Part shown: one piece after another, positions 12,749-54,735 of the stretch
Layout: every line of letters begins with the position of its first letter
How positions within the stretch are numbered: position 1 is the stretch's first letter
Notes under the pieces: model-generated
The model's database searches: none
Told to the model about the DNA's origin: nothing
Seen by the model: only the letters and a program-made list of their open reading frames with translations
Program-made: the position numbers and the translations under genes
NCBI GenBank assembly: GCA_949361645.1
Contig: OX442433.1
Coordinates: 2,180,192 to 2,244,191 of the forward strand
Direction of reading: 5' to 3'
Source of the DNA: Spongilla lacustris
Lineage: Eukaryota > Porifera > Demospongiae > Spongillida > Spongillidae
Length of the DNA stretch: 64,000 bases

Positions 12749-13488
12749 CACTCACTCACTCACTCACTCACTCACTCACTCACTCACTCACTCACTCACT
12801 CACTCACTCACTCACTCACTCACTCACTCACTCACTCACTCACTCACTCACTCACTCACTCACTCACTCACTCACTCACTCACTCACTCACTCACTCACT
12901 CACTCACTCACTCACTCACTCACTCACTCACTCACTCACTCACTCACTCACTCACTCACTCACTCACTCACTCACTCACTCACTCACTCACTCACTCACT
13001 CACTCACTCACTCACTCACTCACTCACTCACTCACTCACTCACTCACTCACTCACTCACTCACTCACTCACTCACTCACTCACTCACTCACTCACTCACT
13101 CACTCACTCACTCACTCACTCACTCACTCACTCACTCACTCACTCACTCACTCACTCACTCACTCACTCACTCACTCACTCACTCACTCACTCACTCACT
13201 CACTCACTCACTCACTCACTCACTCACTCACTCACTCACTCACTCACTCACTCACTCACTCACTCACTCACTCACTCACTCACTCACTCACTCACTCACT
13301 CACTCACTCACTCACTCACTCACTCACTCACTCACTCACTCACTCACTCACTCACTCACTCACTCACTCACTCACTCACTCACTCACTCACTCACTCACT
13401 CACTCACTCACTCACTCACTCACTCACTCACTCACTCACTCACTCACTCACTCACTCACTCACTCACTCACTCACTCACTCACTCACT
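12749..13488. repeat. Perfect (CACT)n microsatellite, ~740 bp
   Basis: About 185 uninterrupted CACT units with no visible interruption. Open frames here (Thr-His-Ser-Leu repeats) are by-products of the 4-nt period, which is open in all + frames. Because it lacks interruptions it is probably highly length-variable; the assembled length may not be exact. Confidence 0.98.
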
Positions 13489-15665: not shown

Positions 15666-15706
15666 CAGTCAGACTACACGCTTCGAACAAAACTTCTCCA
15701 ACAACA

Positions 15707-15778
15707 ATGCTCAAGGAACTAGCTGTTTTCGTGGCATTATTGGCCTGCGTTGCCGAGGCCCGTCCGTACCTCAATGAG
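15707..15778 (+). CDS. Microexon gene exon 1: signal peptide
   Basis: The 72-nt exon encodes MLKELAVFVALLACVAEA followed by six further residues (R, P, Y, L, N, E). A lysine and glutamate precede a hydrophobic core, and the small residues A-E-A before the arginine fit a signal peptidase site. The exon ends in phase 0 before a GTGAAC donor; reading through the donor reaches TGA after five codons, so splicing is required for a longer product. This is the only start near the TATA box. Confidence 0.85.
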
Positions 15779-16032
15779 GTGAACTATAATTGATCGTTCC
15801 AACAGGCGCGTAATATAGCGTCACTGCCTCAATGAACCGCAGCTGGAGAACGAGAACACCGACGGAGACGTTAAGGAGCAACAGGTGACGGATAGTAAGC
15901 TACAGAAACTCCATGGAATACGCATTTGCGTTCAACTTTCATGTGTTTCTTTGAAGACATGATTAATAATTACCTGCGTATGAAGAATACTAACCAGGTG
16001 AAGAAGTCTGAAATAGTACGTACGGAGAAAAG

Positions 16033-16064
<32 letters not shown>

Positions 16065-19000
16065 TTAGAATCCATCTAAAACAATCAACAAGGTTTTATT
16101 TACATCTGTGCGAATAATTGACGAGTTCCTACAGGTGTGGGTTAAGGCGGGCCGGGTGCTTAGCTCGTAGCCCCGGCGTTCCTGGTTCGCTTCGCTCACG
16201 CTAGCCTGCGGCGCTCACATGATCAGGGCCTGCGCGTGCGGCGCTCTCGCCCCTTCAGGGATCCCGCTAGTTCAGGTGTAAATTATTGTACCGGTGTAAA
16301 TTGAACTTGTTGATTATTTGAGATAGATTCTAACGAGGCTAAACTACAGCACAGCCGGATTTGGTTTACTTTCTCATCTCCGCTTGTTCGTTTTGCAGGT
16401 GGCGGGCGCGGTGAGTTATGACGCGAGCACTGCATGCAGAAATAGAATCGTTGCCAAGGCTCTATGAATCGGTTGTGCATGCATGTCGGCTATATGAAAT
16501 ATCCTTGCATGGTACCTCTGCGGCTATACTGACGTGAAAGTCAAATTGATTTGCATTAATTTGTCTTACATTTGTCACTCTTATTCTTGTAGGCTGCGTG
16601 CGTAAGTTTTCCATCATGTCTCTCTCATTTTGATATCACTACTCATGCACGTCTTGGCTTCAACTATGTAGCCTTTCAAGTCATGCGTAAGTATGTGTAT
16701 AATTCATCCCCTGCAAAGCTCACGTATTTATATATATTATTATATATATAATTATATATAATTATATATTTACTCCTGACCTGACCACTCAATATATCTA
16801 TATGCAGCACGTAAGTCAGTAGAAGCTTGCATTACATAGTGTGTTATTCAACCGTTTGTCATTTGGCTCTCACCATTGGTAATCAGGATGTAAGTGACGT
16901 GAAGATGTTAACATTGATAGATTATCGGTTCCTTCGTTCTGTTACATAATACAACATAACTGATCAATGTCATACAGTGTGTAAGTACCGATTACATTGT
17001 ACGAAATCATTCTTTGAACGTTGTTGTGTTAATGGCTACTGCTGTCAACTGGCATGCAGACAGTAAGTACCAATGACGTTGTGACCTTCACGCTTCTTAA
17101 TAATGTCTCCATGAATACTGTTATGAACGATTAAGAGATCTAGAGTAAGTACCAATGATGTTGTAGTGATGATATTGTGCTTTTATGCTTCTTAATGCTG
17201 TCTCCATATTATGAACAATACATGCAGGTAGTAAGTACCAATGATGTTGTAGTGATGATACTGTGCCTTTATGGCTTCTTAATACTGTTTCTATGAATAA
17301 TATTATGAACAATGCAGGGAGTAAGTATCAATGATGTTGTAGTGACATCGTGCTTTTCATGGCTTCTTAATACTGCATGAATACTGATTTGAACAATGCA
17401 GTATGTAAGTACCAATAAATTTGTGGCCTTTCATACTGTCAATTATGAACAATACAGGTAGTAAGTACCAATGAAGTTGTAGTGACATCTGCCATCCATG
17501 GCTTCATAATACTGACTCTATGAATACCATTATGAACAATACAGATAGTAAGTACCAATGATGCTCAAGGCTTCTTAATACTGTCTCTATGAATAACATT
17601 ATGAACAATACAGCAAGTAAGTACCAATGATGTTGTAGTTCTTAATACTGTCTCTATGATTATCATTATGACCAATACAGCAAGTAAGTACCAATGATGT
17701 AGTAGTGATATTGTGCCTTTATGGCTTCTTAATACTATCTCTATGAATACTATTATGAACAATGCAGGAAGTAAGTACTAATAATATTGTAGTGACATCA
17801 TGCTTTTTATGGCTTCTTAATTCTGTCACTGTTTTGAACAATGCAGTGTGTAAGTACCAATGATGTTGCAGTGACATTTGCATTTCATGGTTTCTTACAC
17901 TGCTCTATGAATACTATTATGAACAATACAGGCAGTAAGTATCAATGATGTTGTGGGGATGATATTGTGCCTTCATGGCTTCTTGATTGCTATTTCTATG
18001 CATACTATTTTGAACGACACAGGCAGTAAGTACCAATGATGTAGTGACATCTGCATTTGATGGCTTCTTAATACTGTCTATGAATACTATTATGAACAAT
18101 ATAGGCAGTAAGTACCAATGATGTTGTAGGGACATCTGCCTTTTATGGCTTCTTAATACTGACTCAACTATCTTGAACAATACAGCAAGTAAGTACCATT
18201 GATGTGGTAATGATGAGTATGGCTTCTTAACACTGTCTATGAATCATGTACTATTATGAACAATGCAGCGAGTAAGTACCATATCGTGCTATTATGGCTT
18301 CTTAATACTGTCTCTATGAATACTATTATGAACTATACAGATGGTAAGTACCAATGATAAAGTGACATCTGCCTTTCATGGCTTCTGTCTATGAATACTA
18401 TTGTCAACAATACAGGAGGTAAGCACCAATGATGTTGTACATGTAGTGAAGTCTGCCTTTCATGGCTTCTTATAATGCTGTCTCTATGAACAATACAGTT
18501 GGTAAACACCAATGATGTTATAGTGACATCATGGCTTCTAACACGTGTCTTTATGGCTTCTTGACACTGTCTATATGAATACTATTATGAACAATACAGG
18601 GAGTAAGTACCAATGATGTGATGATATTGTGCCTTTATGGCTTCTTAATTCTGTTTCTATGAATAATTTTTTGACCAATACAGAATGTAAGTACCAATGA
18701 TGTTGTAGAGATATCTTGCCTTTTTGGCTTCCTAATACTGTCTCTATGAATACTGCTTTGAACAATGCAGTGTGTAAGTATACCAATGATGTTGTAGTGA
18801 CATCTGCCTTTCATGATTTTTAATACTGTCTCTATGAATACTATTTTGAACAATATAGGACGTAAGTACCAATGATGATGTAGTGACATCTGTTTTTCTT
18901 GATTCTTAATACTGTCTCTATGAATACTATTTTGAACAATATAGGACGTAAGTACCAATGATGATGTAGTGACATCTGCCTTTAATACTGTCTCTATGAA

Positions 19001-22000
19001 TACCATTTTGAACAATATATAGGACGTAAGTACCAATGATGTTGTAGTTACGGTGGCCCGGTAGATCGCGCACACGAACTATTAAATGGAGCGTTAAGCG
19101 TAATACAGGGTGTCCACGAATGAACGCAACGCTTTTGAACGCGAATAACTTTTGATAGGATGATAAAAAAAAAATCTCATATTTTGAAACTAAGTTGGTC
19201 GGTTTCCTCAAATTTTTTTACATCCAATTATTAATACATTATTAATCATGTTAATCAATTTTAATATTTTGAAAGTTCACATATCGATTGTGAAGCTTCG
19301 TTCAAAATATTGGATTTTTTCCACATTCACAACTAAAACTAAGATCCACTACTTATTTCTTTTCGCGTACGCATGCGCACACGACCTCGTCCCAAGACTT
19401 ATTTCGTGATTAGTCTGTCACGTGATACAATTTGGAGGCGGATCTTTTTAAAAAAGCAATGCCCCACCTCCTACGTGGGTGTTACGAGTCAGCAAGTGCT
19501 AATTACATGTTTACACCCAATGTGGTGCGCACCAATTAGCACAATCGTACAGACAGACACTACTACGGGCTGATAAGAATTTGACATGCAATGCCATTCT
19601 GTGAGTTAGGAAACGGAGACGCACACGTGTATACACACGTGTGTGATTTACACACGCAAATCTAAGATTACAGCTCTCTCGGAGCTAATAGCCTACAGCA
19701 GCATCGCATCCCAAGCAGCACACAGTAATTTGTGGGCATATCTGATTTTGTCTCTTAACTAGCTACGTAGCTAAGATCCCGTGGAGTCAAACCAATGCTA
19801 TGTATGGGTACTGCCTGTGCCGGATTAAGGATATACTCTTGTGTTATGTGAAGTGCCATTTAATGCTGTAAGGAAAGCCTCATGTCATACATATGTGAAG
19901 GGTCAGAGAGCATTCAAGCCTCCATCCAGTTAAGTGATTAATTGTGCATGCTGTTAAGCTAGGTATTTGCTTTATAAATCTTTTATGGTGGTGCTTTCAA
20001 CGTGAGCTTCTAGCTGTGACTCTCTGCTTAAAAATACACCTGCAGGTTTAGATGATAGCAAAGGTTGCAGTTTTAAAGAAAAGCCTTTATTCCTAGTTCC
20101 AGATCACAGTGTGTGCTGTTGCTTAATTATGTGTCAGTGTGTAGACCACCGATCTCAAAGCTAATGTTGCAAGCCTCCAGCAAGGTTTTAGATAATTTGT
20201 TTTTCTAAAGAGAAGGTGTGCATTACTTTCAATGTTCATCCCAAATCCTTTTTTGTGCTGCTTGTGGTGCTTTTGTTAAAAATCACCAGCTAATGTTCAA
20301 AGCCACTGGACAGGTTTTCAATGATTGGATTTAAGAGCAGTGTCACTATATCCCATTGCGAGCCTGTTAGCTAGTTCCTAGATCAGGATGTGCCTAAATT
20401 GGGATTAGATGAATTTTGAAGACAGCTGTTTTAGGTGAGGTGTGCTTGCATCATGTTCGGAGCCTTTCTAGCCGTGTTAACTGTGGCCTTTGCATAATTA
20501 GACTCTCTGGTTTTTTTTAATGTGAGGGTGTGTTTAACTGTCTAATGTTGACCAGTAAGGATGGGGTAGTGTTGTAGCTAGTTTCCAGATCATAATGTGC
20601 ACTGATGCTTACATGTATGTAGTGAGAGGCTTTTGTATTTAAATGAGTCATGTTTTTATGTTAGGGGCCAATGCTTTCATTTTAGAGTATCAGCTGATAT
20701 GTAATGCCTCGAGCTATGTTTTAGAAAAAAAATAAACACACACACACACACATGTTGGTCCACTATGACCTGGGAACGTGCAACAATGATGCATTACTTG
20801 AACAGCATGCACAATCATGTTGTGTGCAAATACATTACTGGATGGTATGAAACTCCCTCAGGAGTACCAATACTCTTAAGACGTGGCAACACAAGTACAT
20901 CCAACCATCTAAAACCTAGCTGTAAGCTTGCTACACCACAACAGGAGTCTCCTGAGGCTGATGCATAAGCAACAACACATAATGTAGACTGGGAACTTCA
21001 TGTAGCTAACAGCAAGACCCAAAACATGATGCTCACTTTAAGACATACAGTGATTGTCATCTGCTAAGAAACTCGTAGCTTTATGAATTGAAATTAAAGC
21101 TCAAACTCTCTAACAGCACTATTTCCGTGATATTATCTAAAACATAGCTCGAGGCATTACATATCAGTTGATACTCTAAAATGAAAGCATTGGCCCCTAA
21201 CATAAAAACATGACTCTTTTGAATACTAAAGCCTCTCACTACATACATGTAAGCATCAGTGCACATTATGATCTGGAAACTAGCTACAACACTACCCCAT
21301 CCTTACTGGTCAACATTAGACAGTTAAACACACCCTCACATTAAAAAAAACCCAGAGAGTCTAATTATGCAAAGGCCACAGTTAACACAGCTAGAAAGGC
21401 TCCGAACATGATGCAAGCACACCTCACCTAAAACAGCTGTCTTCAAAATTCATCTAATCCCAATTTAGGCACATCCTGATCTAGGAACTAGCTAACAGGC
21501 TCGCAATGGGATACAGTGACACTGCTCTTAAATCCAATCATTGAAAACCTGTCCGGTGGCTTGTAACATTAGCTGGTGATTTTTAACAAAAGCACCCCTT
21601 CACTGTCTGTTTAAAAAGAAGAGAGCCATCCATGCATACACAAGCAGCACAAAAAAAGATTTGGGATGAACATTGAAAGTAATGCACACCTTCTCTTTAG
21701 AAAAACAAATTATCTAAAACCTTGCTGGAGGCTTGCAACATTAGCTTTGAGATCGGTGGTCTACACACTGACACATAATTAAGCAACAGCACACACTATG
21801 ATCTGGAACTAGGAATAAAGGTTTTTCTTTAAAACTGCAACCTTTGCTATCATCTAAACCTGCAGGTGTATTTTTAAGCAGAGAGTACCTTTAACCTTAA
21901 TAACACTCACAGCTAGAAGCTCACGTTGAAAGCACCACCATATTAGATTTACAAAGCAAATACCTAGCTTAACAGCATGCACAATTAATCATTTAACTGG

Positions 22001-25000
22001 ATGGAGGCTTGAATGCTCTCTGACCCTTCACATATGTATGACATGAGGCTTTCCTTACAGTATTAAATGGCACTTCACATAACACAAGAGTATATCCTTT
22101 AATCCGGCACAGGCAGTACCCATACATAGCATTGGTTTGGCTCCACGGGATCTTAGCTACGTAGCTAGTTAAGAGACAAAATCAGATATGCCCACAAATT
22201 ACTGTGTGCTGCTTGGGATGCGATGCTGCTGTAGGCTATTAGCTCCGAGAGAGCTGTAATCTTAGATTTGCGTGTGTAAATCACACACGTGTGTATACAC
22301 GTGTGCGTCTCCGTTTCCTAACTCACAGAATGGCATTGCATGTCAAATTCTTATCAGCCCGTAGTAGTGTCTGTCTGTACGATTGTGCTAATTGGTGCGC
22401 ACCACATTGGGTGTAAACATGTAATTAGCACTTGCTGACTCGTAACACCCACGTAGGAGGTGGGGCATTGCTTTTTTAAAAAGATCCGCCTCCAAATTGT
22501 ATCACGTGACAGACTAATCACGAAATAAGTCTTGGGACGAGGTCGTGTGCGCATGCGTACGCGAAAAGAAATAAGTAGTGGATCTTAGTTTTAGTTGTGA
22601 ATGTGGAAAAAATCCAATATTTTGAACGAAGCTTCACAATCGATATGTGACCTTTCAAAATATTAAAATTAATTAGTATGATTAATAATGTATTAATTAA
22701 ATGGATGTGAAAAAATTTGAGGAAACCGACCAACTTAGTTTCAAAAATATGAGATTTTTTTTATCATCCTATCAAAAGTTATTCGCGTTCAAAAACATTG
22801 CGTTCATTCGTGGATACCCTGTACATGCAAAGTCCAATTTTGAGGTTAAACTCAGAGCGCAAGACGCAGAGCGCAAGGCCCAGAGCGCAGAGTGCAAGGC
22901 TCAGAGGTCAGAGCGCAAGGCTATATAAACGCTCTATGGGATGGATTCTTTACTATGGGATGGAATTTACGTCACTGTTATTCACGTGACTGACGTGAGC
23001 TACTGCTGGTTAAATTACCGCTTGCAGAAACTGCTCTCAGGGGCTTTCTCAGTATCACAGAACTGGAGAACGGGTCAACGTCGTGCTGACAAAGACGTCG
23101 ACCCGTTCTCCAGTTCTGTGATACTGAGAACACGGCTGTTTCATTCCATTGAAAAGTTGGACGTCCCCATTCCCTACAAGGAGACAGGCAACGAAACTCT
23201 CGTTACCGCATGGCACAGGACAGTGGCTTATCCTTTATTATCCGTACAACGTACGCTCGCTGTGAGTTGATATTTCGGTCAGGCGTCCTTCGAGGACTAA
23301 AACAGTATATGTTTTGTCTTTGTTGTATTTACATACGCGAGAAGAGAGGGCCGAGACTACATGCGCTTTATTTTGAGTTGTTCGTGTCAATAGGCTTTTT
23401 TTTGAGAAACCCGCCAAGCCAACTGCAAAAACTCTTTTAGAAACGTGTACTCAATAGACGGCTGTATTTGGTTCTGTTTAGGGTGTAACGGGGCTTATTT
23501 TCTGCGTGTCGTGCTTGCGTTCTGAGCCTTGCGCTCTGCGCTCTGGGCCATGCGCTCTGTGCCTTGCGCTCAGAGCTTAACCTCATAATTGGACTTTGTA
23601 TTGCGCTTTCAATAGTTTGTGTGCACGACCTATCGTATGTAGTGACATCTGCCTTTCATGATTCTTAATACTGTCTCTATGAATAATATTATGAACAATG
23701 CAGGGAGTAAGTACCAATGAAGTTGTAGTGACATCTGCCTTTCATGATTCTTATTACTGTCTCTATGAATACTATATTGAACAATACAGAGCGTAAGTAC
23801 CAATGATGTAGTGATGATATTGTGCCTTATGGCTTCTTAATACTGTCTCTATGAAACTATTATGAACAATACAGTTTGTAAGTTGCAGTGACGATGTTGT
23901 ACCTTTATGGTGTCTTAACAACATATGTCTCTATGAATACTATTATGAACAATACAGTGGGTAAGTGTCAGTGATGATTGGCTTCTTAATACTGTCTCTA
24001 TGAATACTATTTGAACAATACAGTGGGTATGTACCAATGATGTAGTGAGGATATTGTGCCTTTATGGCTTCTTAATACTGTCTATTTTGAACAATACAGC
24101 GAGTAAGTACCAATGGATATATAGTGATGATATTGTGCCTTTATGGCTTCTTATTACTGTGTTCATGAATACTATTATGAACAATGCAGTGTGTAAGTGC
24201 CAATGAATTAGTAGTGACATCATGTCATTATGGCTACTTAACTGTCTCTATGAATACTATTTTGAACAATTACAGTGTGTAAGTGCCAATGATGTTGTGG
24301 TGATGATTATATGGCTTCGTATTACTGCCTCTATGAATACTATTTTGAACAATACAGTGTGTAAGTACCAATGATGATGCTGTAGTGATGATATTGTGCC
24401 TTTATGGCTTCTTTATACTGTGAATAATGCAGGGAGTAAGTACCAATGCAGTGACATCATGCTTCTTAATCTGTCTCTATGAATACAATTTTGAACAATG
24501 CAGTGTGTAAGTACCGATGAATTTGTAGTGACATGGCTTCTTAATACTGCCTCTATGAATATTATTTGAACAATTACAGACTGTAAGTACCAATGATGTT
24601 GTAGTGACACCTTTCTTTCATGGCTTCTTAATACTGAATATTATTTGATCAAAATAGCAAGTAAGTACCAATGATGTTGTAGAGACATCTGCCCTTCATG
24701 GCTTCGTAATACTGTCTCTATATAGGATGTAAGTAGTGATGATATTGTGCTTCTTAATTCCTTTTGTCTATGAATACTATTATGAACAATACAGGATGTA
24801 AGTACCAATGATTATGTAGTGATGATATTGTGCCTTTTATGGCTTCTTAATACTGTCTCTATGAAACTGTTATGAACAATACAGATAGTAAGTACCATGA
24901 TGTTGAAATGACATTTGCATTTCATGGCTTCTTAATACTGTCTCCATCAATACTATATACAGAAAGTAAGTACCAATGATATAACAGCAATGTGGTGCCT

Positions 25001-25658
25001 TTCATGGCTTTTTAATACTGTTTCTATGAATACTATGTTATGAACAATACAGCAAGTAAGTACCAATGATGTTGCAGTGATGTGGTGCCTTTCATGGCTT
25101 CTTCATACTGTTGTTATTGAAATCTATTACAACAATACAGTTAGTAAGTACCAATAATACTTTGCATCACTATACGGCTGTGGCTCCTGAACTATTCTTT
25201 TTATCCCAACAGTGTGTAAGTTCTATAGTTGTGTTGACGTAGCACTGCTGAATGGTCGAATTCACCATCTAAATCAATGCTACATGCCCATACTATGTAC
25301 ACTGCAGCAAGTGAGTTAAGAAATTTACTCGTTCACACAACAAGCACGTTTTGTGTTTCTTTTTAGGAAGTAAGTTTGTTATGTACTTCGCCATTCTATG
25401 CTATTAAAATATCACTTTGATGATACGGCCCACATGCAGAGTGTAAGTGCTGAAATTATTCCAATGTACATTAGTTCATTGCATTACTTCAAATCACTGC
25501 ACAGGGAGTAAGTGCGGAGATTGTATACCTGAGTTCAATTCAGTAACGATTTCTCTGCTTCTGATTGACATCCAATGGTGTAGTGTGTAAGTGCATTATC
25601 GTACCATGTCTTCATACTCTCATTTCTTATTGCATTGGCAACAACATGGCAGTGCTAG
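15707..25658 (+). CDS. Secreted cysteine-rich peptide gene made of single-codon microexons
   Basis: Predicted gene of about 60 exons spanning 10 kb. It has a signal-peptide exon (15707-15778), two propeptide exons (15843-15894, 15957-16015), several exons of 6-15 nt, 52 exons of exactly 3 nt, and a last exon reading TGC TAG (25653-25658). Every unit shows an AG acceptor, three bases, then a GTAAGT-type donor. Exon phases agree throughout: exon 2 ends in phase 1 and exon 3 completes it, and all later exons are phase 0. The product would be about 126-131 residues with 12 cysteines after the signal peptide, suggesting disulfide bonding outside the cell. No family is recognised; schistosome micro-exon genes are the nearest known architecture but use exons of 6 nt and more. 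Function is unknown. One intron carries a 4.6-kb insertion. Transcription is not shown by sequence alone. Confidence 0.8.
15843..15894 (+). CDS. Microexon gene exon 2: acidic propeptide
   Basis: It follows a 64-nt intron ending CCGCAG. The 52-nt exon is rich in Glu, Asp, Asn and Gln and ends in phase 1 before a strong GTAAGC donor. An internal GTGACG at 15885 is an alternative donor but would leave exon 3 out of frame with a stop at its second codon. Confidence 0.8.
15957..16015 (+). CDS. Microexon gene exon 3: propeptide with Lys-Lys
   Basis: A pyrimidine-rich acceptor (TTTCTTTGAAG) opens a 59-nt exon whose first two bases complete the split codon from exon 2. It then stays open for 19 codons to a GTACGT donor. 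Near the end it carries a Lys-Lys pair, a possible prohormone-type cleavage site just before the cysteine-bearing part begins. The fit of phase between exons 2 and 3 supports the model. Confidence 0.8.
16135..16140 (+). CDS. Possible 6-nt exon 4 (GTG TGG)
   Basis: The acceptor TTCCTACAG is good, but the donor GTTAAG is weak. A second candidate donor (GTGCTT) would make the exon 21 nt, also frame-neutral. The exon could be skipped without changing frame. A poly-C run of about 31 bases (16033-16063) lies in the preceding intron. Confidence 0.4.
16399..16410 (+). CDS. Microexon gene 12-nt exon (Val-Ala-Gly-Ala)
   Basis: It is bounded by a strong acceptor (TTCGTTTTGCAG) and a strong donor (GTGAGT). 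GTG GCG GGC GCG is read in phase 0. The surrounding sequence is not related to the 3-nt unit repeats, so the exon signal stands on its own. Confidence 0.7.
16593..16601 (+). CDS. Microexon gene 9-nt exon (Ala-Ala-Cys)
   Basis: Acceptor TTATTCTTGTAG, exon GCT GCG TGC, donor GTAAGT. Phase 0 at both sides. It carries the first cysteine after the signal peptide. Confidence 0.75.
16672..16686 (+). CDS. Microexon gene 15-nt exon ending Ser-Cys
   Basis: Acceptor ACTATGTAG, exon CCT TTC AAG TCA TGC, donor GTAAGT. A second AG at 16679-16680 would shorten the exon to TCA TGC, also in frame, so two acceptors may compete. Both versions keep the cysteine. Confidence 0.7.
16808..17062 (+). CDS. Four 5'-end single-codon microexons
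   Basis: Each lies between an AG acceptor and a GTAAGT donor: 16808 CAC (His), 16887 GAT (Asp), 16978 TGT (Cys), 17060 ACA (Thr). The introns between them (76-88 nt) do not share the repeat sequence of the central array, except that from 16978 on the donors begin to resemble the array consensus GTAAGTACC. Conservation of AG-NNN-GTAAGT in otherwise unrelated introns is the strongest sign that these are real exons rather than a repeat by-product. Confidence 0.8.
17136..17144 (+). CDS. Possible 9-nt microexon in the array (aberrant unit)
   Basis: In this unit the usual AACAATACAG is replaced by AACGATTAAG and the donor is GTAAGTACC. Taking the first AG gives AGA TCT AGA, nine nt and in frame; the other AGs in the unit leave 7 or 1 nt and would break the frame. 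The unit may instead be skipped. Confidence 0.4.
17228..18107 (+). CDS. Twelve single-codon microexons, left array part 1
   Basis: Start position and codon: 17228 GTA, 17318 GGA, 17402 TAT, 17458 GTA, 17545 ATA, 17614 CAA, 17681 CAA, 17768 GAA, 17847 TGT, 17932 GCA, 18023 GCA, 18105 GCA. Acceptors are AACAATACAG or AACAATGCAG (TATAG at 18105) and donors are GTAAGTACC or close. Introns of 53-93 nt are copies of one unit containing TGGCTTCTTAATACTG and TGAATACTATTATG. Adjacent identical codons point to recent duplication of whole units. Confidence 0.8.
18186..19025 (+). CDS. Eleven single-codon microexons, left array part 2
   Basis: Start position and codon: 18186 CAA, 18269 CGA, 18341 ATG, 18416 GAG, 18499 TTG, 18600 GGA, 18684 AAT, 18771 TGT, 18859 GAC, 18945 GAC, 19023 GAC. 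Donors at 18416 (GTAAGC) and 18499 (GTAAAC) are weaker, so those two exons may be used less. The last three units share codon and a TATAG acceptor and look like recent duplicates. The intron after 19025 holds the 4.6-kb foldback insertion. Confidence 0.8.
19043..19048. repeat. 6-bp target-site duplication (left) of the foldback insertion
   Basis: TGTAGT at 19043-19048 recurs at 23638-23643. The array unit sequence GATGTTGTAGTGACATCTGCC is continuous if the insertion and one copy are ignored, which fixes the boundaries. Confidence 0.85.
19104..20724 (+). repeat. Left arm of 1.6-kb inverted repeat
   Basis: Near-identical to the reverse complement of 21136-22822; the same 66-codon open frame appears at 19373-19573 (+) and 22354-22554 (-). 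The arms differ by substitutions and small indels, including an extra segment near 21595-21640 in the right arm, so the palindrome is not brand new. Confidence 0.85.
21136..22822 (-). repeat. Right arm of 1.7-kb inverted repeat
   Basis: Reverse complement of 19104-20724. Together with the spacer 20725-21135, which contains a short CA run and no recognisable gene, it could form a very long hairpin as DNA or RNA. Confidence 0.85.
23047..23129. repeat. Perfect 30-bp inverted repeat inside the foldback element
   Basis: Arms 23047-23076 and 23100-23129 are exact complements around a 23-nt loop; the pairing extends 6 bp further inward with one mismatch. It lies in the unexplained 0.8-kb segment at the right side of the insertion. 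Confidence 0.9.
23704..24506 (+). CDS. Eleven single-codon microexons, right array part 1
   Basis: Start position and codon: 23704 GGA, 23790 AGC, 23875 TTT, 23958 TGG, 24024 TGG, 24100 CGA, 24190 TGT, 24276 TGT, 24358 TGT, 24433 GGA, 24504 TGT. The same unit consensus as the left array resumes immediately after the insertion. The donor at 24024 is GTATGT; the others are GTAAGT. Four of nine single-codon cysteines fall here, so this part is the cysteine-dense core of the predicted peptide. Confidence 0.8.
24580..25143 (+). CDS. Eight single-codon microexons, right array part 2
   Basis: Start position and codon: 24580 ACT, 24658 CAA, 24726 GAT, 24795 GAT, 24885 ATA, 24963 AAA, 25053 CAA, 25141 TTA. 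The unit at 24726 is shortened (TATATAG acceptor, 65-nt intron before it) but keeps the 3-nt spacing. All donors are GTAAGT. Confidence 0.8.
25213..25586 (+). CDS. Six 3'-end single-codon microexons in non-repeat introns
   Basis: Start position and codon: 25213 TGT, 25308 CAA, 25367 GAA, 25440 AGT, 25505 GGA, 25584 TGT. Introns here are unrelated to the array unit, and acceptors differ (CCAACAG, CTGCAG, TTTTTAG, ATGCAG, CACAG, GTGTAG), yet each is followed by exactly three bases and GTAAGT (GTGAGT at 25308). This mirrors the 5' end of the array and argues for selection on the splice signals. Confidence 0.8.
25653..25658 (+). CDS. Microexon gene terminal exon: Cys-stop
   Basis: After acceptor ACATGGCAG the last exon reads TGC TAG in the phase carried through the array, ending the protein on cysteine. 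The 3' untranslated region probably extends into the hairpin at 25795-25992, where AATAAA occurs at 25905-25910. A GTACGT follows the stop and could be a chance donor. Confidence 0.7.
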   Translation, partial: C

Positions 25659-25794
25659 GTACGTTTCTTGATTGAGTTGTATCTCTCAAGTACTTTGAAG
25701 TAACACACTTCTTTATGTCTTGTATATAGCCATGATTCTTGTACGTTTCTGATGCACACATTTGAGAATGAATTGTAGCAATGATGTTTGGTTA

Positions 25795-25992
25795 TTGCTA
25801 TGCACTGCCAATTGCTATAAATATTGCGACCAAGCTTGTGGTGTAGCATGCATGATGGGTGGTCATTTTATCAATGTTTATTGTTCATGCATATCCTTAT
25901 GAACAATAAACATTGATAAAATGACCACCCATCATGCATACTACACCACAAGCTTGGTCGCAATATTTATAGCAATTGGCAGTGCATAGCAA
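25795..25992. repeat. 94-bp near-perfect inverted repeat downstream of the microexon gene
   Basis: Arms 25795-25888 and 25899-25992 pair with a single mismatch around a 10-nt loop. The right arm contains AATAAA at 25905-25910, a possible polyadenylation signal for the microexon gene. A further direct copy of the arm lies at about 26403-26496. Confidence 0.85.
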
Positions 25993-32726: not shown

Positions 32727-35700
32727 TCAATAATAGTCTGGCCGTCTAGATATTCTCCCACTTCTTGTTCTTATTACATGCTCTTCTTTGGGTTCCATCC
32801 TTGGTGCTTGCCTCTCCATGCGTGGATCTTTAGCATCCGGGTTTTCCAGGTTGTCTTTACCATTCTCTTTCTCATCTGGAGGTTCCCTATTCGATATCTT
32901 TGTATCCGCATGTTTTTCCCCTTCATCTTTCTCTTCTTCATCTTGAGGTTGTTTTTCCTCTTCTGCTACAGCCCTCTCGTCCTCCACTCTTCTTTTGCCC
33001 TGTTCATCTGCAGTTTCCTCCTCCTCTGATATCTCCCCTCCTCTCTGATCTTGGTCTTTTGGCATAAGAACTAAAGCACGCCTATTTCGTCTGAAGTTCC
33101 CTTCTTGTGTCTCCACCACATAGGATCGTGGAGCGATCTCTTTCACAACCCTCCCCATAGTGCGACGATCCAAAATCCACACTGTATCTCCCAAGTGCAA
33201 TGTAGGAAGCATCTTTACTCCATGATCTGCATCAAAATTCTTCTTTTGTCTCCCTTTTACTTGGTCATTTTTGTTCGACAGTACTGTAGGATCCGGAAGT
33301 TTGGGGACTCTCTGTTCCTGAGCCAGAGGCAAAGTGGTTCTGAGTCTCCTACATATGAGCAATTCCGCTGGACTGTAACCGATTTCAAGGGGAGTCGCAC
33401 GGTATATCAGCAAGGCCAAAAATGGATCTTTCTCTTTTTTCCATAGACTCTTCACTGTTCTTACTGCCCGCTCTGCTTCCCCATTGGACTGTGGATAAAG
33501 TGGGCTACTAGTGATGTGTTCAAAACCATACTCACTACTGAAGTTCTGAAATGTTCTCGAAGAAAACTGAGGACCATTATCAGATACAACTTCCTCTGGC
33601 ACTCCATGCCTTGCAAAAATGCCTTTCACTGCTCCTATCACAGCCTCTGTTGACAGACCTCCCAACCTGGTTACCTCTATGAACCTTGAATAATAGTCTA
33701 CCATAAGGAGATAGCTACCCTTTTCCCATTCAAAAATATCCATGGCAACCTTCTGCCATGGCAAGGTAGGTAAAGGTGTTGTCAACAAAGGTTCTGCTTT
33801 TTGTATCTGCTCTTTACAACATGTAGGGCACCGCTGCACTAGCTCTTCTATATGTTTTGACAATCCTGGCCACCAGACGGACTGACGGGCTCTTTCTCTG
33901 CATTTAGATATGCCCTGATGTCCTTCATGGATCTTCTTCAACATTTCAGGCCTCATGGATTCTGGAATAACTATTCTCGCTCCTCTCATCAACAAACCCT
34001 TTACAACTGTGAGCTCTGCAGACACCTGAGAATAAGCTCTTACTGGTCCTGGCACCTTTTTCTTTTCAGGCCATCCATCCAAGCAGTACCTAGCGACTTG
34101 TTTGATTACTGCATCCACCTCCTGCTGCCTTCGAATCTGTTGGATACCCTTCTCTGACTTGGGGTGATACTCCATCGTGAAATCTATAAATGCATTTGTT
34201 GACTTCTGTAGCAGCAAATCCTCTGCAGTTGGCTCCGAGACTGGAGCACGAGACAATGCATCTGCAATTGCTAAATCCTTGCCTGCTACGTGGGAAATTG
34301 TGAACGAGTACCGCATCAGACGCAGTCGAAAACGTTGAACCCGTATTGGCAGTTCGTCCAAGTTCTTATTGCTGAAGAGTGGTACTAAAGGCTTGTGATC
34401 TGTCTGAAGATGAAATTGCAAGCCGATCAAATAGTCAGAGAATCGTTCACATGCCCACGTCAAAGCTAGAGCTTCCTTTTCAATTTGTGTGTATCTTTTC
34501 TCCGTAGGCGTCATGGCCCTGGACACATATGCTATAGGACGCAACTCGCCTTTCAGCTGCTTCTGCAACAACACTGCACCAAGTCCAAAGGAGGAAGCGT
34601 CTGCAGAAACTATAGTCTCCCGAACTGGATCGAAGAAAGCCAACACAGGTCTTGTACTCAAGGCTTCTTTTACTTCTTGAAAGGCCTTCTTTTGTGCCTC
34701 TCCCCAAATCCACATATTTCTCTTTGACAGTAGATCTCGCAGAGGCTGTGTTTTCTCTGCAACGTTGGGTGAAAATTTACTTAGCTGATTGACCATGCCG
34801 AGAAACCTACGGACATCTCCTATGTTTGTTGGTTCTGGAACTTGAAGAATCGCACTGACTTTAGCAGGATCTGGCCTGATTCCCTCACTATCAATAACCT
34901 GACCAAGAAATTTTACTTCAGGTAAGGAAAAGAAACACTTCTCTTTATTTAGGGTGAGACCAGAACGTTGGATTCTCCGAAGAACTTCATGTAGACGACT
35001 ATCATGTTCTTCTTGAGTCTTGCCATGAACCAGAATATCATCCATCATGCAGAGCACTCCCTCTACCCCTGAGAGAATTGCGAGCATCCGTTTTTGAAAA
35101 TGTTCTGGGGCTGATGTGATGCCGAATGGAAGCCGATGAAAACAGAACCGCCCAAATGGTGTGACGAATGTTGTGAGTAAAGCAGATTCTGGTGATAATG
35201 GGATCTGCCAGAATCCACTGTTGGCGTCAAGCTTAGAAAACAACTTTGCACCTGTCAACTGGGCCAATACTTGTTCCACAACAGGAAGTGGATGTCGCTC
35301 TCTACAGACACTTTCGTTTAGTCTAGACAAGTCCACACAAATTCGCACCGAGCCATTAGCTTTTTGAGCTACCACCATCCCGGCACACCATTCTGTGGGT
35401 TCTTCGACAGGAGAGATCACCCCCAATTGCACCATCCTCTCCAGTTCTGCTTTAACTCTCGGCAGGAGTGGTATGGCAACTCGCCTAGGTGTCATCAACG
35501 CAAAGGGGCAAGCTCCTTCTCTGAGCCGAATTGTGTACTCTCCCTTCAACTTCCCCAGTCCCTTGAACAGGTTAGGGTACTGTAAAGGTATCTGATCCCC
35601 TGTGAGACCAATGCTAGCAACTCGTGTAATCAGACCCAAGGACTCTATTGCAGGTCTGCCAAGTAAAGGCGTATGCAGCCCTGGCACCACGTACACTTCC

Positions 35701-36356
35701 TCAACAACAGTAGCATTCCTGTATGCCAGGGTAGCTTTAAGACACCCTCTTACCGGCAACTCCTGGTTATTAGGACCATGCAGTCGTTTTTGAGCTGGGT
35801 AAAGTGTTTTTGTCTCCCTCTGGCGGCGAAGCACACTCATTGGTATAACCGTCACATCCGCGCCTGTATCCATCTTGAAGGTGACAGGTTGTCCATTGAG
35901 TTGCAAAGTCACCAACCAAGAATCATTTCTCCCTGCCCTATGGTTAGCTAGGTCATGTATATACACTGCATCCAATACTTCTGAATTGTCAGAAAACACC
36001 TCCTTCACTCTTGTAGATGACCTACACACCGCCTGAAAATGCCCAAGTTTTCCACATTTATTGCAAGTTGCATTTCTTGCTGGACAATTTCTGCGATCAT
36101 GTGGGAACCCTTTCCCACAATTTGGGCATTTACTTTGTGTCCCCTGTGTTAACTGAGTTGACTTCCGTATTGCTGGTTGTGGTCCTTTTGTATGTAAGGG
36201 CTGCTGCTGCTGTCTACCAGGAGAGACTGCATCAATGTTGACAGGCTGGGGTTGAGACTGACCACATCGAATTATTGCCTGCTGTTTCCTCACACTTTCC
36301 GCCTGCCGAGATTGTGCTACTGCTTTCTCTAAGGTAAGGTTAGGGTCCATCTGCAA
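32727..36356 (-). CDS. Ty3/gypsy Pol polyprotein (protease, RT, RNase H, integrase)
   Basis: 1209-codon frame. Two zinc knuckles occupy residues about 77-111 (the C-terminal end of gag, here in the pol frame). The protease active site MDTGADVTVI is at about 162-171. The reverse transcriptase shows KLDANSGFWQIPL, FGITSAPEHFQ and the catalytic MMDDILVHG. RNase H starts with SADASSFGLGAVL and has the TDHKPLVPL block. The integrase has an H-H-C-C zinc domain (HQGI...CPTCC) and a DDE core with MDIFEW, SDNGPQF and NGEAERAV. The tail is highly acidic (Glu/Lys repeats, about residues 1100-1180) and ends RTRSGRISRRPDYY. The pol frame itself has no stop. The methionine at 36356 is probably internal to an original gag-pol frame rather than a true start. 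Confidence 0.95.
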   Translation of the reverse strand: MQMDPNLTLEKAVAQSRQAESVRKQQAIIRCGQSQPQPVNIDAVSPGRQQQQPLHTKGPQPAIRKSTQLTQGTQSKCPNCGKGFPHDRRNCPARNATCNKCGKLGHFQAVCRSSTRVKEVFSDNSEVLDAVYIHDLANHRAGRNDSWLVTLQLNGQPVTFKMDTGADVTVIPMSVLRRQRETKTLYPAQKRLHGPNNQELPVRGCLKATLAYRNATVVEEVYVVPGLHTPLLGRPAIESLGLITRVASIGLTGDQIPLQYPNLFKGLGKLKGEYTIRLREGACPFALMTPRRVAIPLLPRVKAELERMVQLGVISPVEEPTEWCAGMVVAQKANGSVRICVDLSRLNESVCRERHPLPVVEQVLAQLTGAKLFSKLDANSGFWQIPLSPESALLTTFVTPFGRFCFHRLPFGITSAPEHFQKRMLAILSGVEGVLCMMDDILVHGKTQEEHDSRLHEVLRRIQRSGLTLNKEKCFFSLPEVKFLGQVIDSEGIRPDPAKVSAILQVPEPTNIGDVRRFLGMVNQLSKFSPNVAEKTQPLRDLLSKRNMWIWGEAQKKAFQEVKEALSTRPVLAFFDPVRETIVSADASSFGLGAVLLQKQLKGELRPIAYVSRAMTPTEKRYTQIEKEALALTWACERFSDYLIGLQFHLQTDHKPLVPLFSNKNLDELPIRVQRFRLRLMRYSFTISHVAGKDLAIADALSRAPVSEPTAEDLLLQKSTNAFIDFTMEYHPKSEKGIQQIRRQQEVDAVIKQVARYCLDGWPEKKKVPGPVRAYSQVSAELTVVKGLLMRGARIVIPESMRPEMLKKIHEGHQGISKCRERARQSVWWPGLSKHIEELVQRCPTCCKEQIQKAEPLLTTPLPTLPWQKVAMDIFEWEKGSYLLMVDYYSRFIEVTRLGGLSTEAVIGAVKGIFARHGVPEEVVSDNGPQFSSRTFQNFSSEYGFEHITSSPLYPQSNGEAERAVRTVKSLWKKEKDPFLALLIYRATPLEIGYSPAELLICRRLRTTLPLAQEQRVPKLPDPTVLSNKNDQVKGRQKKNFDADHGVKMLPTLHLGDTVWILDRRTMGRVVKEIAPRSYVVETQEGNFRRNRRALVLMPKDQDQRGGEISEEEETADEQGKRRVEDERAVAEEEKQPQDEEEKDEGEKHADTKISNREPPDEKENGKDNLENPDAKDPRMERQAPRMEPKEEHVIRTRSGRISRRPDYY

Positions 36357-36359
36357 TTT

Positions 36360-36799
36360 TTCTGACAGTTGTGAATCCGTATACCCACCACAATTCTGTC
36401 CCTAATCATTTCTCCTTGAAGCACCTTATAATCGCAAAATTCAGCCAGCCGGTAGAGATCCGTTATAAAAGCATCCACAGTTTCCCCATCTTCTTGTCTC
36501 CTTTGATTAAACTTCGCTCTTTCAAATATAACGTTTCTCCGAGGGACAAAATGAGACTCAAATTTGCCCTTTACGACACTGTACTTTTTTTAATCTTCCG
36601 CAGATAGACCGAATGACCGTAGGATATCATCCGCTTCGTCGCCCATGCTATAAATGAGATTGCTCACTTGTGTCTCCTCTTCTTTCGCGTCCAGCCCCGA
36701 CACCTGGCGAAATCGCTCAAAGCGACGAATCCACTTTGGCCATTCCTCGGGATGCGTGAAGCTAAAGTTTTCCGGTGGAGTCACCTGAAAGGTCGCCAT
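36360..36799 (-). pseudogene. Ty3/gypsy gag, interrupted
   Basis: Gag begins with ATG at 36799, 85 bp inside the 5' LTR, with MATFQVTPPENFSF. It is open to a TAA at about 36590-36592, continues in the same frame beyond that stop for about 65 codons, and then changes frame by 1 nt near 36385 before joining the pol frame. Two lesions therefore break it. The methionine further upstream (36949) is in the LTR and unlikely to be used. Confidence 0.85.
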
Positions 36800-43029: not shown

Positions 43030-46000
43030 ACCAGGCCTAGTATCAGATACGCTTCACAACGGTCAGAGGCCTCACACTCAGCTGATGGCCCACGGATTAT
43101 GTGACTTGGAGAGGGTAGCTATGTCAGGTGAGCACATGCTTATTATGCATTAAAGTACTTATATGTGCAAGTGTACATATAAGTATATGGGACATAAGGC
43201 TTGTCAAATATGCTTCACAACGGTCAGAGGCCTCACACTGATGGACCACTAAAGGTCATGTGACTTGGAGAGGTGTGGCTACATGTGTATGTCAGGTGGG
43301 CAGATGCTTCTTATACATTCATGTACTTACATGTACATGTGTACTTTTTAATAACAGTCTGAGCTTGTCAGATATGCTTCACAATGGTCATATGATGGCC
43401 CACTCAAGGTCATGTGACTTGGAGAGGTGTGGCTATGTCAGGTGGGCTGATGCTTCTTATACATTCATGTACTTACATGCACATGTGTACTTTTTAGCGT
43501 ATGGGACATAAAGCTTGTCAGATATGCTTCACAACGGTCAGAGGCCTCACACTGATGGCCCACTAAAGGTCATGTGACCTGGAGAGGTGTGGCTACGTAC
43601 AGGTGGGCAGATTTTTCTTATACATTCAAGTACATACGTGTGCATGTGTACTTTTTAGTGTATGGGACATAGGACTTGTCAGATATGCTTCGCAATGGTC
43701 AGAGGCCTCACACTGATGGCCCACTACAGATCATGTGAATTAGAGAGGTGTGGCTTTATCAGGTGGGCAGATGTTTCTTATACATTCATGTACTTACATG
43801 TACATGTGTACTTTTTAGTGTATGGGACGTAAGGCTTGTCAGATATGCTTCACAATGGTCATAGGCCTCACACTCATGGCCCACTCAAGGTCATGTGACT
43901 TGGAGAGGTGTGGCTATGTCAGGTGGGCAGATGCTTCTTATACATTCATGTACTTACGTGTACATGTGTACTTTTTAGTGTATGGGACATAAGGCTTGTC
44001 AGATAAGCTTCACAATGGTCAGAGGCCTCACACTAATGGCCCACTACAAATCATGTGACTTAGAGAGTTGTGGTTATATCATGCAGGTGATCAGCATATG
44101 CTTATTATACATTCATGTACTTACAGTGTATGTACACATACATATGTACATGTGTACTTTTTAGTGTATGGGACATAAGGCTTGTCAGATATGCTTCACA
44201 ACGGTCAGAGGCCTCACACTGATGAACCACGAAAGGCCATGTGACTTGGAAAGGTGTGGCTACATGTGTATGTCAGGTGGGCAGATGCTTCTTACATGTA
44301 CATGTATACATTCATGTACTTACATGCACATGTATACTTTTTAGTGTATGTGATGTAAGGCTTGTCAGATATGCTTCACAATGGTCATAGGCCTCACACT
44401 CATGGCCCACTCAAGGTCATGTGACTTGGAGAGGTGTGGCTATGTCAGGTGGGCAGATGCTTCTTATACATTCATGTACTTACATGTAGATGTGTACTTT
44501 TTAGTGTATGGGACATAAGGCTTGTCAGATATGCTTCGCAATGGTCAGAGGCCTCACACTGATGGCCCACTCAAGGTCATGTGACTTGGAGAGGTGTGGC
44601 TATGTCAGGTGGGCAGATGCTTCTTATACATTCATGAACTTACATGTACATGTGTACTTTTTAGTGTATGGGACATAAGGCTTGTCAGATATGCTTCACA
44701 ATGGTCAGAGGCCTCACACTGATGGCCCACTACAGATCATGTGAATTAGAGAGGTGTGGCTTTATCAGGTGAGCATATGCTTATTATATATTCATGTACT
44801 TACATGTACATTAACATGTGTACTTTTTAGTGTATGGGACATAAGGCTTGTCAGATATGCTTCACAATGGTCAGAGGCCTCACACTGATGGCCCACTCAA
44901 GGTCATGTGACTTGGAGAGGTGTGGCTACATGTTGTTGTCAGGTGGGCAGATGCTTCTTATACATTCATGTACTTACATGTAGATGTGTACTTTTTAGTG
45001 TATGGGACATAAGGCTTGTCAGATATGCTTCACAATGGTCAGAGGCCTCACACTCATGGCCCACTCAAGGTCATGTGACTTGGAGAGGTGTGGAGATGTC
45101 AGGTGGGCAGATGCTTCTTATACATTCATGTACTTACATGTAGATGTGTACTTTTTAGTGTATGGGACATAAGGCTTGTCAGATATGCTTCACAACGGTC
45201 AGAGGCCTCACACTGGTGACCCACTACAGATCATGTGACTTGGAGAGGTGTGGCTATGTCAGGTGAGCATATGCTTATTATACATTCATGTACTTATGTA
45301 CACATAAATATGTACATGTGTACTTTTTAGTGTATGGGACATAAGGCTTGTCAGATATGCTTCACAACGGTCAGAGGCCTCACACTGATGGACCACTCAA
45401 GGTGATGTGACTTGGAGAGGTGTGGCTACATGTGTATGTCAGGTGGGCAGATGCTTCTTATACATTCATGTACTTACATGCACATGTGTACTTTTTAGTG
45501 TATGTGACGTAAGGCTTGTCAGATATGCTTCACAATGGTCAGAGGCCTCACACTGATGGCCCACTAAAGGTCATGTGACCTGGAGAGGTGTGGCTATACA
45601 TGTATGAGGTGGGCAGATGATTCTTATACATTCATGTACTTACATGTACATGTGTACTTTTTAGTGTATGGGACATAAGGCTTGTCAGATATGCTTCACA
45701 ACGGTCAGAGGCCTCACACTGATGGCCCACTCAAGGTCATGTGACTTGGAGAGGTGTGGCTATGTCAGGTGGGCAGATGCTTCTTATACATTCATGTACT
45801 TACATGTACATGTGTACTTTTTAGTGTATGGGACATAAGGCTTGTCAGATATGCTTCGCAATGGTCAGAGGCCTCACACTGATGGCCCACTCAAGGTCAT
45901 GTGACTTGGAGAGGTGTGGCTATGTCAGGTGGGCAGATGCTTCTTATACATTCATGTACTTACATGTACATGTGTACTTTTTAGTGTATAGGACATAAGG

Positions 46001-54545: not shown

Positions 54546-54735
54546 AGATAGGTGGTTGCTACCCAGTTTTATGTTTCTTAGTCATGTACTCATTCTATTT
54601 TAGTCTATGTCACAAGACGCACTGGAAAGGCTTCACAATGTACAGTGTTGTTACGCCAGATGCGTTGATGAAGTGTTGCATTGATGAAGTGTTGCATATT
54701 TGTATTCGTGTTGTAACGTATATTTCTTGAAATTA
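54546..54735 (+). other. Diverged terminal satellite unit with an open frame
   Basis: After an acceptor-like TTCTATTTTAG at 54592-54602 the sequence aligns with the start of a satellite unit but keeps an open frame to TGA at about 54730 (ending ...RVVTYIS). The aligned phase differs by one base from that of the repeated units. It may be a real last exon or simply the array edge. Confidence 0.3.

Follow-up and report, generated by a model that had tools for sequence, protein, structure and literature searches.

A candidate secreted prepropeptide gene of Spongilla lacustris with arrays of predicted single-codon exons, and its paralogous family

One exon of 3 nucleotides (nt) already strains the models of exon recognition. 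A gene of the sponge Spongilla lacustris appears to need dozens of them in a row, spliced accurately, which raises the question whether a protein can be encoded at one amino acid per exon. The gene lies in a 64-kb stretch of DNA (the window; positions 2180192-2244191 of contig OX442433.1, here C20, in the 248.56-Mb genome of 51 contigs, assembly GCA_949361645.1), and all coordinates without a contig name are those of the whole window. The original prediction had proposed 52 single-codon exons in a gene of about 10 kb. Our analysis suggests that the gene very probably belongs to a family of secreted prepropeptides. Their mature part would be written for the most part at one codon per exon, would have grown by cassette duplication and is probably spliced stepwise. 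The architecture had been called undescribed, and no description of arrays of successive 3-nt exons was found in the open-access literature, with bioRxiv and most subscription journals outside this coverage.

Predicted splice sites and codons in the window

All 52 sites, in which an AG and a GT enclose exactly three bases, were present between 16805 and 25592. At 48 of them the donor is GTAAGT, and GTAAGC, GTAAAC, GTATGT and GTGAGT occur once each. The motif YAG-NNN-GTAAGT was found 50 times on the two strands of the window, 48 times within the array. In 100 shuffles that preserved the dinucleotides its mean was 1.27 and its maximum 4, and none reached 50. A 53rd GTAAGT (17145) has its AG 9 nt upstream and would define an in-frame 9-nt exon, AGA TCT AGA, for Arg-Ser-Arg. 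The array is not one unbroken run, which corrects the original prediction: an intron of 4,678 nt splits it into two blocks. All other introns between the 3-nt exons span 53-98 nt.

Most array units are members of an ~86-bp tandem repeat. When 43 units, chosen by their splice sites, were aligned, the triplet columns carried 0.08, 0.13 and 0.31 bits; no other column between -31 and +24 fell below 0.36 bits, and the AG and GTA columns were invariant. A scan with the flanks alone (15700-25800) gave 49 donor-side matches. All those scoring 12 or more sit at the listed donors; matches below 12 without a GT occur inside the array and, at the printed scores, also outside it. One of the former, at 18776, is shifted out of register by 2 nt inserted behind a GTAAGT that is itself intact. 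Nine sites at the outer ends (16811, 16890, 16981 and six at 25216-25587) share little of the repeat intron sequence by eye and nonetheless keep AG-NNN-GT[AG]AGT.

The strength of the donors was compared with the preceding base. Among 55 donors (those of the array plus 16602 and 16687), a sequence other than GTAAGT was seen in three of the five that follow an exon-end G and in one of the 50 others (P = 0.0015). Weaker donors mainly at these positions would be expected if such a G adds to the pairing with U1.

No stop codon occurs among the 52 triplets, compared to 5.9 expected by column shuffling (P = 0.00014; P = 0.0006 with adjacent identical triplets collapsed). TGT accounts for nine of them.

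The exon model (Table 1) has 60 exons with 372 nt, encoding 123 residues and a stop, fewer than the about 130 residues first estimated. The TATA box, the signal exon, the short exons of 12, 9 and 15 nt and the final Cys-stop exon had all been foreseen and are present. Two propeptide exons joined in phase (phase 1) were also found as proposed, but their placement was corrected by eye against the paralogue on C2, and a first model with exon 2 ending at CAG and exon 3 reading VKKSEI was dropped. Exon 3 has counterparts by eye in DMVNNYLRVK.. (paralogue C2) and EMIISYMRAK.. (paralogue C17:7665682).

Exon 1 begins the protein with a hydrophobic stretch of 24 residues, judged by eye to be a signal peptide. 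Block 1 reads H D C T RSR V G Y V I Q Q E C A A A Q R M E L G N C D D D, and block 2 reads G S F W W R C C C G C T Q D D I K Q L C Q E S G C. The product would be a secreted prepropeptide with a cysteine-rich mature part, drafted as MLKELAVFVALLACVAEARPYLNE-LENENTDGDVKEQQVTDNMINNYLRMKNTNQ-VAGAAACPFKSCHDCTRSRVGYVIQQECAAAQRMELGNCDDDGSFWWRCCCGCTQDDIKQLCQESGCC. Just 3' of the last exon, a hairpin-forming inverted repeat was seen by eye (25820-25990); the AATAAA lies within it, as does a stretch at 25884 that resembles a cassette flank but has no splice sites.

Table 1. Exon model of the window gene
Feature	Position	Strand	Evidence
TATA box TATATAAAA	15657..15665	+	read in the sequence; 50 nt 5' of the ATG
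Exon 1, 72 nt, putative signal peptide MLKELAVFVALLACVAEARPYLNE	15707..15778	+	tblastn relatives in own genome; by eye
Exon 2, acidic propeptide, phase-1 end followed by GTAAGC	15843..15894	+	likeness by eye to LENE... exon of paralogue C2
Exon 3, propeptide (..MINNYLRMKNTNQ), acceptor AAG, end CAG/GTGAAG	15957..15997	+	likeness by eye to paralogues
12-nt exon, VAGA	16399..16410	+	TTTGCAG / GTGAGT
9-nt exon, AAC	16593..16601	+	TTGTAG / GTAAGT
15-nt exon, PFKSC	16672..16686	+	ATGTAG / GTAAGT
Block 1, 27 single-codon exons and one 9-nt exon (17136-17144)	16808..19025	+	AG-NNN-GT sites
Intron, 4,678 nt, with nested foldback (inverted-repeat) element	19026..23703	+	intron length; inverted repeats
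Block 2, 25 single-codon exons	23704..25586	+	AG-NNN-GT sites
Last coding exon, TGC TAG (Cys-stop)	25653..25658	+	acceptor ATGGCAG
AATAAA, possible poly(A) signal, uncertain	25905..25910	+	sits in hairpin-forming stretch seen by eye

A family of paralogous genes

The window gene is one member of a family, a point absent from the original prediction. A tblastn search of its own genome with the window signal exon returned the query exon and four further matches, with E values of 0.0016 to 0.85. Two arrays on C5, copies A and B, were first found by an exact pattern search of the genome. The signal exon of C5 copy B matched 41 places, and that of another member matched 60 places on 17 contigs, all with E<1 and 46 with E<0.01; the window's own exon was not among the 60, and one of them contains a stop. 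A Roc-domain gene lies near the C5 copies, and Death-like frames were seen by eye.

We examined 24 members including the window gene, which were picked by score and not at random. The sequence analysed was at least 3.1 kb for seven members, 3.5-8 kb for six and ~1.5 kb after the ATG for eleven. At least three YAG-NNN-GTAAGT sites were present in 22 of the 24. In member L044, the cassette matches start 2.2 kb downstream, beyond the stretch scanned for arrays. In the member at C17:179005, exons 1-3 precede a single 9-nt site that looks like an exon and a different repeat. In 19 of the 24 loci, a TATA-like motif precedes the ATG by 47-71 nt. The members would follow a shared plan, in which a variable mature region comes after a conserved exon for the signal peptide and two exons for an acidic propeptide.

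The two-exon pattern GTAAGT, 58-88 nt, CAG-NNN-GTAAGT, 58-88 nt, CAG-NNN-GTAAGT occurs at 572 places in the genome (244 and 328 on the two strands), and the reversed control pattern gave no match genome-wide. One 88-nt cassette intron matches at 776 places or more; in this search 40 of 165 candidates were scored. The matches listed form 21 clusters, grouped by hand. In 17 of these, the 6 kb upstream contain a signal exon of the family in the same orientation. The four others among the matches listed (C2:10921689-10922755, C1:24801798, C17:7914017 and C17:7776569) may be additional members or remnants. Viral and prokaryote contigs were scanned for exact matches to one cassette form, and none was found.

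The coding signature was then read across the 24 members. The nearest YAG to the 416 GTAAGT motifs 3' of exon 1 lies at 3 nt in 353 cases and at 6, 9, 12, 15 or 18 nt in 19; nine are at other distances up to 18 nt and 35 have none within 18 nt. On the antisense strand of a smaller set of family sequence, one of 16 GTAAGT had a YAG at 3 nt. Among the 353 triplets there is one stop, compared to 17.1 expected, and none of 20,000 shuffles gave so low a number. The deficit was retained when four near-duplicate members were removed (1 of 325, 16.1 expected), when the window gene was removed as well (1 of 277, 11.7 expected, P = 0.00005) and when each distinct triplet was counted once per gene (1 of 166, 7.9 expected, P = 0.00065). 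The sole stop, a TGA that comes after four TGT exons, lies close to the end of C5 copy B (near C5:1351670).

The codons are unevenly used. In 332 triplets of the 24 members, TGT occurs 44 times and TGC once, CCT 57 times against three CCA, two CCC and no CCG, and glycine is encoded by 51 GGA, six GGT, one GGC and no GGG. An exon-end G is rare among the family triplets. The third position is A or T in 89% of the 3-nt exons and in 36% of the signal-exon codons. We ascribe this bias either to a constraint of the splice sites or to descent from a small set of founder triplets.

The cassette introns, of which 320 were counted within 50-110 nt, have a median length of 85 nt and are homologous across genes. 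The last 44 nt before the YAG contain 31 AG dinucleotides instead of the 525 expected from base composition, and only 28 introns have any. A phase-0 stop is present in 249 of the 320, so read-through of the introns would not yield the peptide. In five pairs of gene copies, the splice-site bases (YAG and the first six of the intron) differ at 19 of 661 positions and the intron bodies at 390 of 6069 (P = 0.0001). In one internal repeat of the C11 gene, exon positions had changed more often than intron positions (9 of 72 and 108 of 1890 nt, P = 0.036), which is suggestive of positive selection on the triplets; neither the remaining four pairs nor the five taken together showed this, and we do not claim such selection.

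Taken as a whole, the sequence data support the view that the triplets are codons read in phase and flanked by genuine splice sites. The proposal of one amino acid per exon draws on the lack of stops, the frame, the scarcity of AG, the donor strength, the conservation of the sites and the existence of the family.

The peptides read from the members differ in composition. These strings are drafts, in which cassettes with an atypical donor or acceptor are partly missing. The C12 member reads rich in Gly-Pro-Pro and the C11 member rich in cysteine; of the C17 members, one has a Pro-Pro-Ile repeat and one is Gly/Glu-rich, and several further members are cysteine-rich. We consider secreted defence, toxin-like or matrix peptides the likeliest product class, because members read Cys-rich, Pro-rich, Gly/Glu-rich or Gly-Pro-Pro. 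A collagen was considered for C12 and rejected, since Gly-Pro-Pro may also reflect duplications of three cassettes and no Pfam match was found.

Growth, splicing and alternative explanations

How could such an array have arisen? The cassette would consist of a 3-nt exon and a phase-0 intron of ~85 nt, with a near-perfect U1 site (GTAAGT), an AG-poor stretch and a YAG acceptor. Tandem duplication or loss of cassettes, singly or in blocks, would lengthen or shorten the peptide without breaking the frame, and point mutations in the triplets could then rewrite it codon by codon. We infer growth by duplication of codon and intron together from the repeats, the in-frame exon indels, the homologous introns and a block duplication in the C11 gene, where ~24 cassettes were copied as one block with 94% identity. 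In the two C5 copies, compared by eye, exon lengths differ by 3 or 6 nt and intron indels have many lengths.

For the splicing, it is very unlikely that the donor and the acceptor of one 3-nt exon are occupied together. Each small intron would therefore be recognised as a unit, and neighbouring introns would be removed successively. With every step a codon would be added to the exon upstream, similar to recursive splicing except that three nucleotides are kept. Intron definition with successive removal is accordingly proposed as the likeliest route, by analogy with the 1-nt exon of Arabidopsis APC11. A further idea, which we regard as rather doubtful, is a codon-by-codon peptide writer with two layers of variation. 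Evolution would add, remove and rewrite single residues by shuffling the cassettes and, since skipping any cassette keeps the frame, alternative inclusion could yield a large set of in-frame peptides from one gene, as a splicing-based generator of diversity.

If the genes are expressed, they would offer a natural test system for intron definition, the order of intron removal and its fidelity, and a route by which proteins grow by single residues through intron duplication. If true, proteins of this family would be built and would evolve in an unusual manner, and ordinary gene finders and read aligners could miss such secreted proteins, as the mature region forms no open reading frame in the genome.

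Several observations weigh against this explanation. The stop tests depend on repeated triplets: with each distinct triplet counted once, the window test loses significance (P = 0.077), and so does the family test when triplets are distinct family-wide (1 of 49, 2.0 expected, P = 0.37). Kinship of the units and their detection by the site pattern remain in part in all coding and splice statistics. In C5 copy B one more array unit follows the TGA triplet, which may be a stop, a skipped exon or a recoded codon. AG is also infrequent in the 5' part of the 320 introns (148 compared to 337 expected). In the five copy pairs, two of which have one sequence in common, the triplets differ at 13 of 177 positions, not distinguishable from the intron bodies (390 of 6069, P = 0.64), and this comparison does not demonstrate selection on the residues. 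An acceptor-side match with a score of 21.5 at 25884, 3' of the last exon, lacks both AG and GT and may be a remnant. At C17:179005 no array was found in nearly 20 kb examined. C5 copy A has lost a donor (GT to AT) and has ~1.5 kb between exon 1 and the next exon, and in block 1 of the C11 gene a 7-nt deletion has damaged the donor of one cassette; under cassette growth such damage would be tolerated because loss of one cassette keeps the frame. The protein searches gave no relative of the window protein, queried with the older exon 2-3 model, in 5.8 billion predicted proteins or in PDB, and none of the C11 member in PDB. Pfam searches with the window protein (older exon 2-3 model), copy B, C11 and C12 gave one match, to C11, below the cut-off.

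To these points the 4,678-nt intron is added. It contains a foldback (19104-22823) with six arm pieces, ~1.6 kb summed and 90-99% complementary, directly followed by a smaller inverted repeat (22825-23601). Such an element, next to introns of 53-98 nt, would fit a silent relic in the window, disrupted by the foldback in its middle intron, within a family that is otherwise functional. All 52 triplets are nevertheless sense codons, each with its AG and GT, on both sides of the insertion, and we consider a relic unlikely. The homology of the introns across genes might instead point to introner-like elements that inserted after each codon of an ordinary coding exon. Independent insertions should hit all three phases, whereas the exon lengths are nearly all multiples of 3. 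In addition, 17 of the 21 clusters among the matches listed lie 3' of a family signal exon on the same strand, and the ~24 cassettes of the C11 gene were duplicated together, which makes this origin very unlikely.

That the sites are real and serve as recursive steps in the removal of a long intron, with the triplets mostly skipped and a short mature protein as the result, is suggested by the ratchet-like layout of an AG by a strong donor and by the short introns. Zero-nt ratchet points, however, give no reason for three nearly stop-free bases, and a donor 3 nt past the AG would keep the triplet unless a further skip occurs; we regard this use of the sites as extremely unlikely. The tandem repetition of most units would also fit a non-coding, unspliced minisatellite with an ~86-bp unit that carries AG-NNN-GTAAGT by chance. 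In such a repeat it would be surprising that constraint within the unit is lowest at the triplet, that the triplets are nearly free of stops, that exons longer than 3 nt are mostly in frame (19 and nine), that AG is scarce in the introns, that the outermost sites keep their splice motif with little of the repeat around it, and that many loci have an array preceded by a signal exon of one type. A minisatellite artefact was rejected on the column information, the stops, the AG scarcity and the genome pattern (572 and 0 matches), and the locus is almost certainly of another kind. Cassette duplication in a secreted prepropeptide family remains our preferred explanation.

Related gene architectures and other features of the window

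Introners are near-identical introns spread over unrelated genes. The cassette introns resemble them in being near-identical at many places, but among the matches listed they belong mainly to one gene family and one phase. Vertebrate neural microexons are isolated exons of 3-27 nt under neuronal regulation.

The micro-exon genes (MEGs) of schistosomes have, in the part of the article consulted, 10-20 exons of mostly 15 bp, with a minimum of 6 bp in its text or 3 in its abstract, and introns of 100 to almost 5000 bp (PMC10526429). The sponge genes are like them in their predicted secreted products, the many short exons mostly of multiples of three and the dispersed multigene family (PMC10526429). 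As in MEGs, the putative signal peptide lies on the first exon (by eye, with 60 similar places at E<1), and the short exons are symmetric (353 of 416 at 3 nt and 19 in frame at 6-18 nt, with nine out of frame). The sizes differ, with exons of 3 nt and a median intron of 85 nt. MEGs also form isoforms in which central exons are skipped. The window gene is set apart from MEGs by its 52 predicted one-codon exons and mutually homologous ~85-nt introns.

Ratchet points, described for Drosophila Ubx and other genes, are zero-nt exons in long introns (PMC8605326). The acceptor adjoins the donor in both cases, implying stepwise removal, which for ratchet points proceeds through intermediates, but in the sponge gene three nucleotides stand between AG and GT at 52 sites, the introns are short and one codon would be left per step. 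For the 1-nt exon of Arabidopsis APC11, simultaneous recognition of both sites was held to be very unlikely, and intron definition with stepwise removal was proposed (PMC4674806). Together with the single tiny exon of Drosophila homothorax, it shows that exons of 1-3 nt can be spliced (PMC7392893). These tiny exons are isolated in ordinary genes, whereas those of the sponge form arrays.

The bicycle genes of aphids are fast-changing putative effectors with ~17 exons on average, whose small internal exons are in phase 2; one aphid gene has more than 100 microexons, and the portion of the article covered holds no mention of 3-nt exons (PMC9168663). Many small internal exons in a single phase are common to both systems. 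In the window gene this phase is not 2, and it is the reading in whole codons (phase 0) that avoids stops. As far as these comparators are described in the parts of the sources consulted, they share features with the sponge genes, and none has arrays of successive single-codon exons.

Apart from the gene, the window contains an 11.5-kb tandem array with 69.5 copies of a 160-bp unit (43043-54547) and a perfect CACT repeat of 185 copies (12749-13488). On the minus strand, an open frame of 1224 amino acids (32727-36401) resembles a gypsy-type polyprotein by eye.

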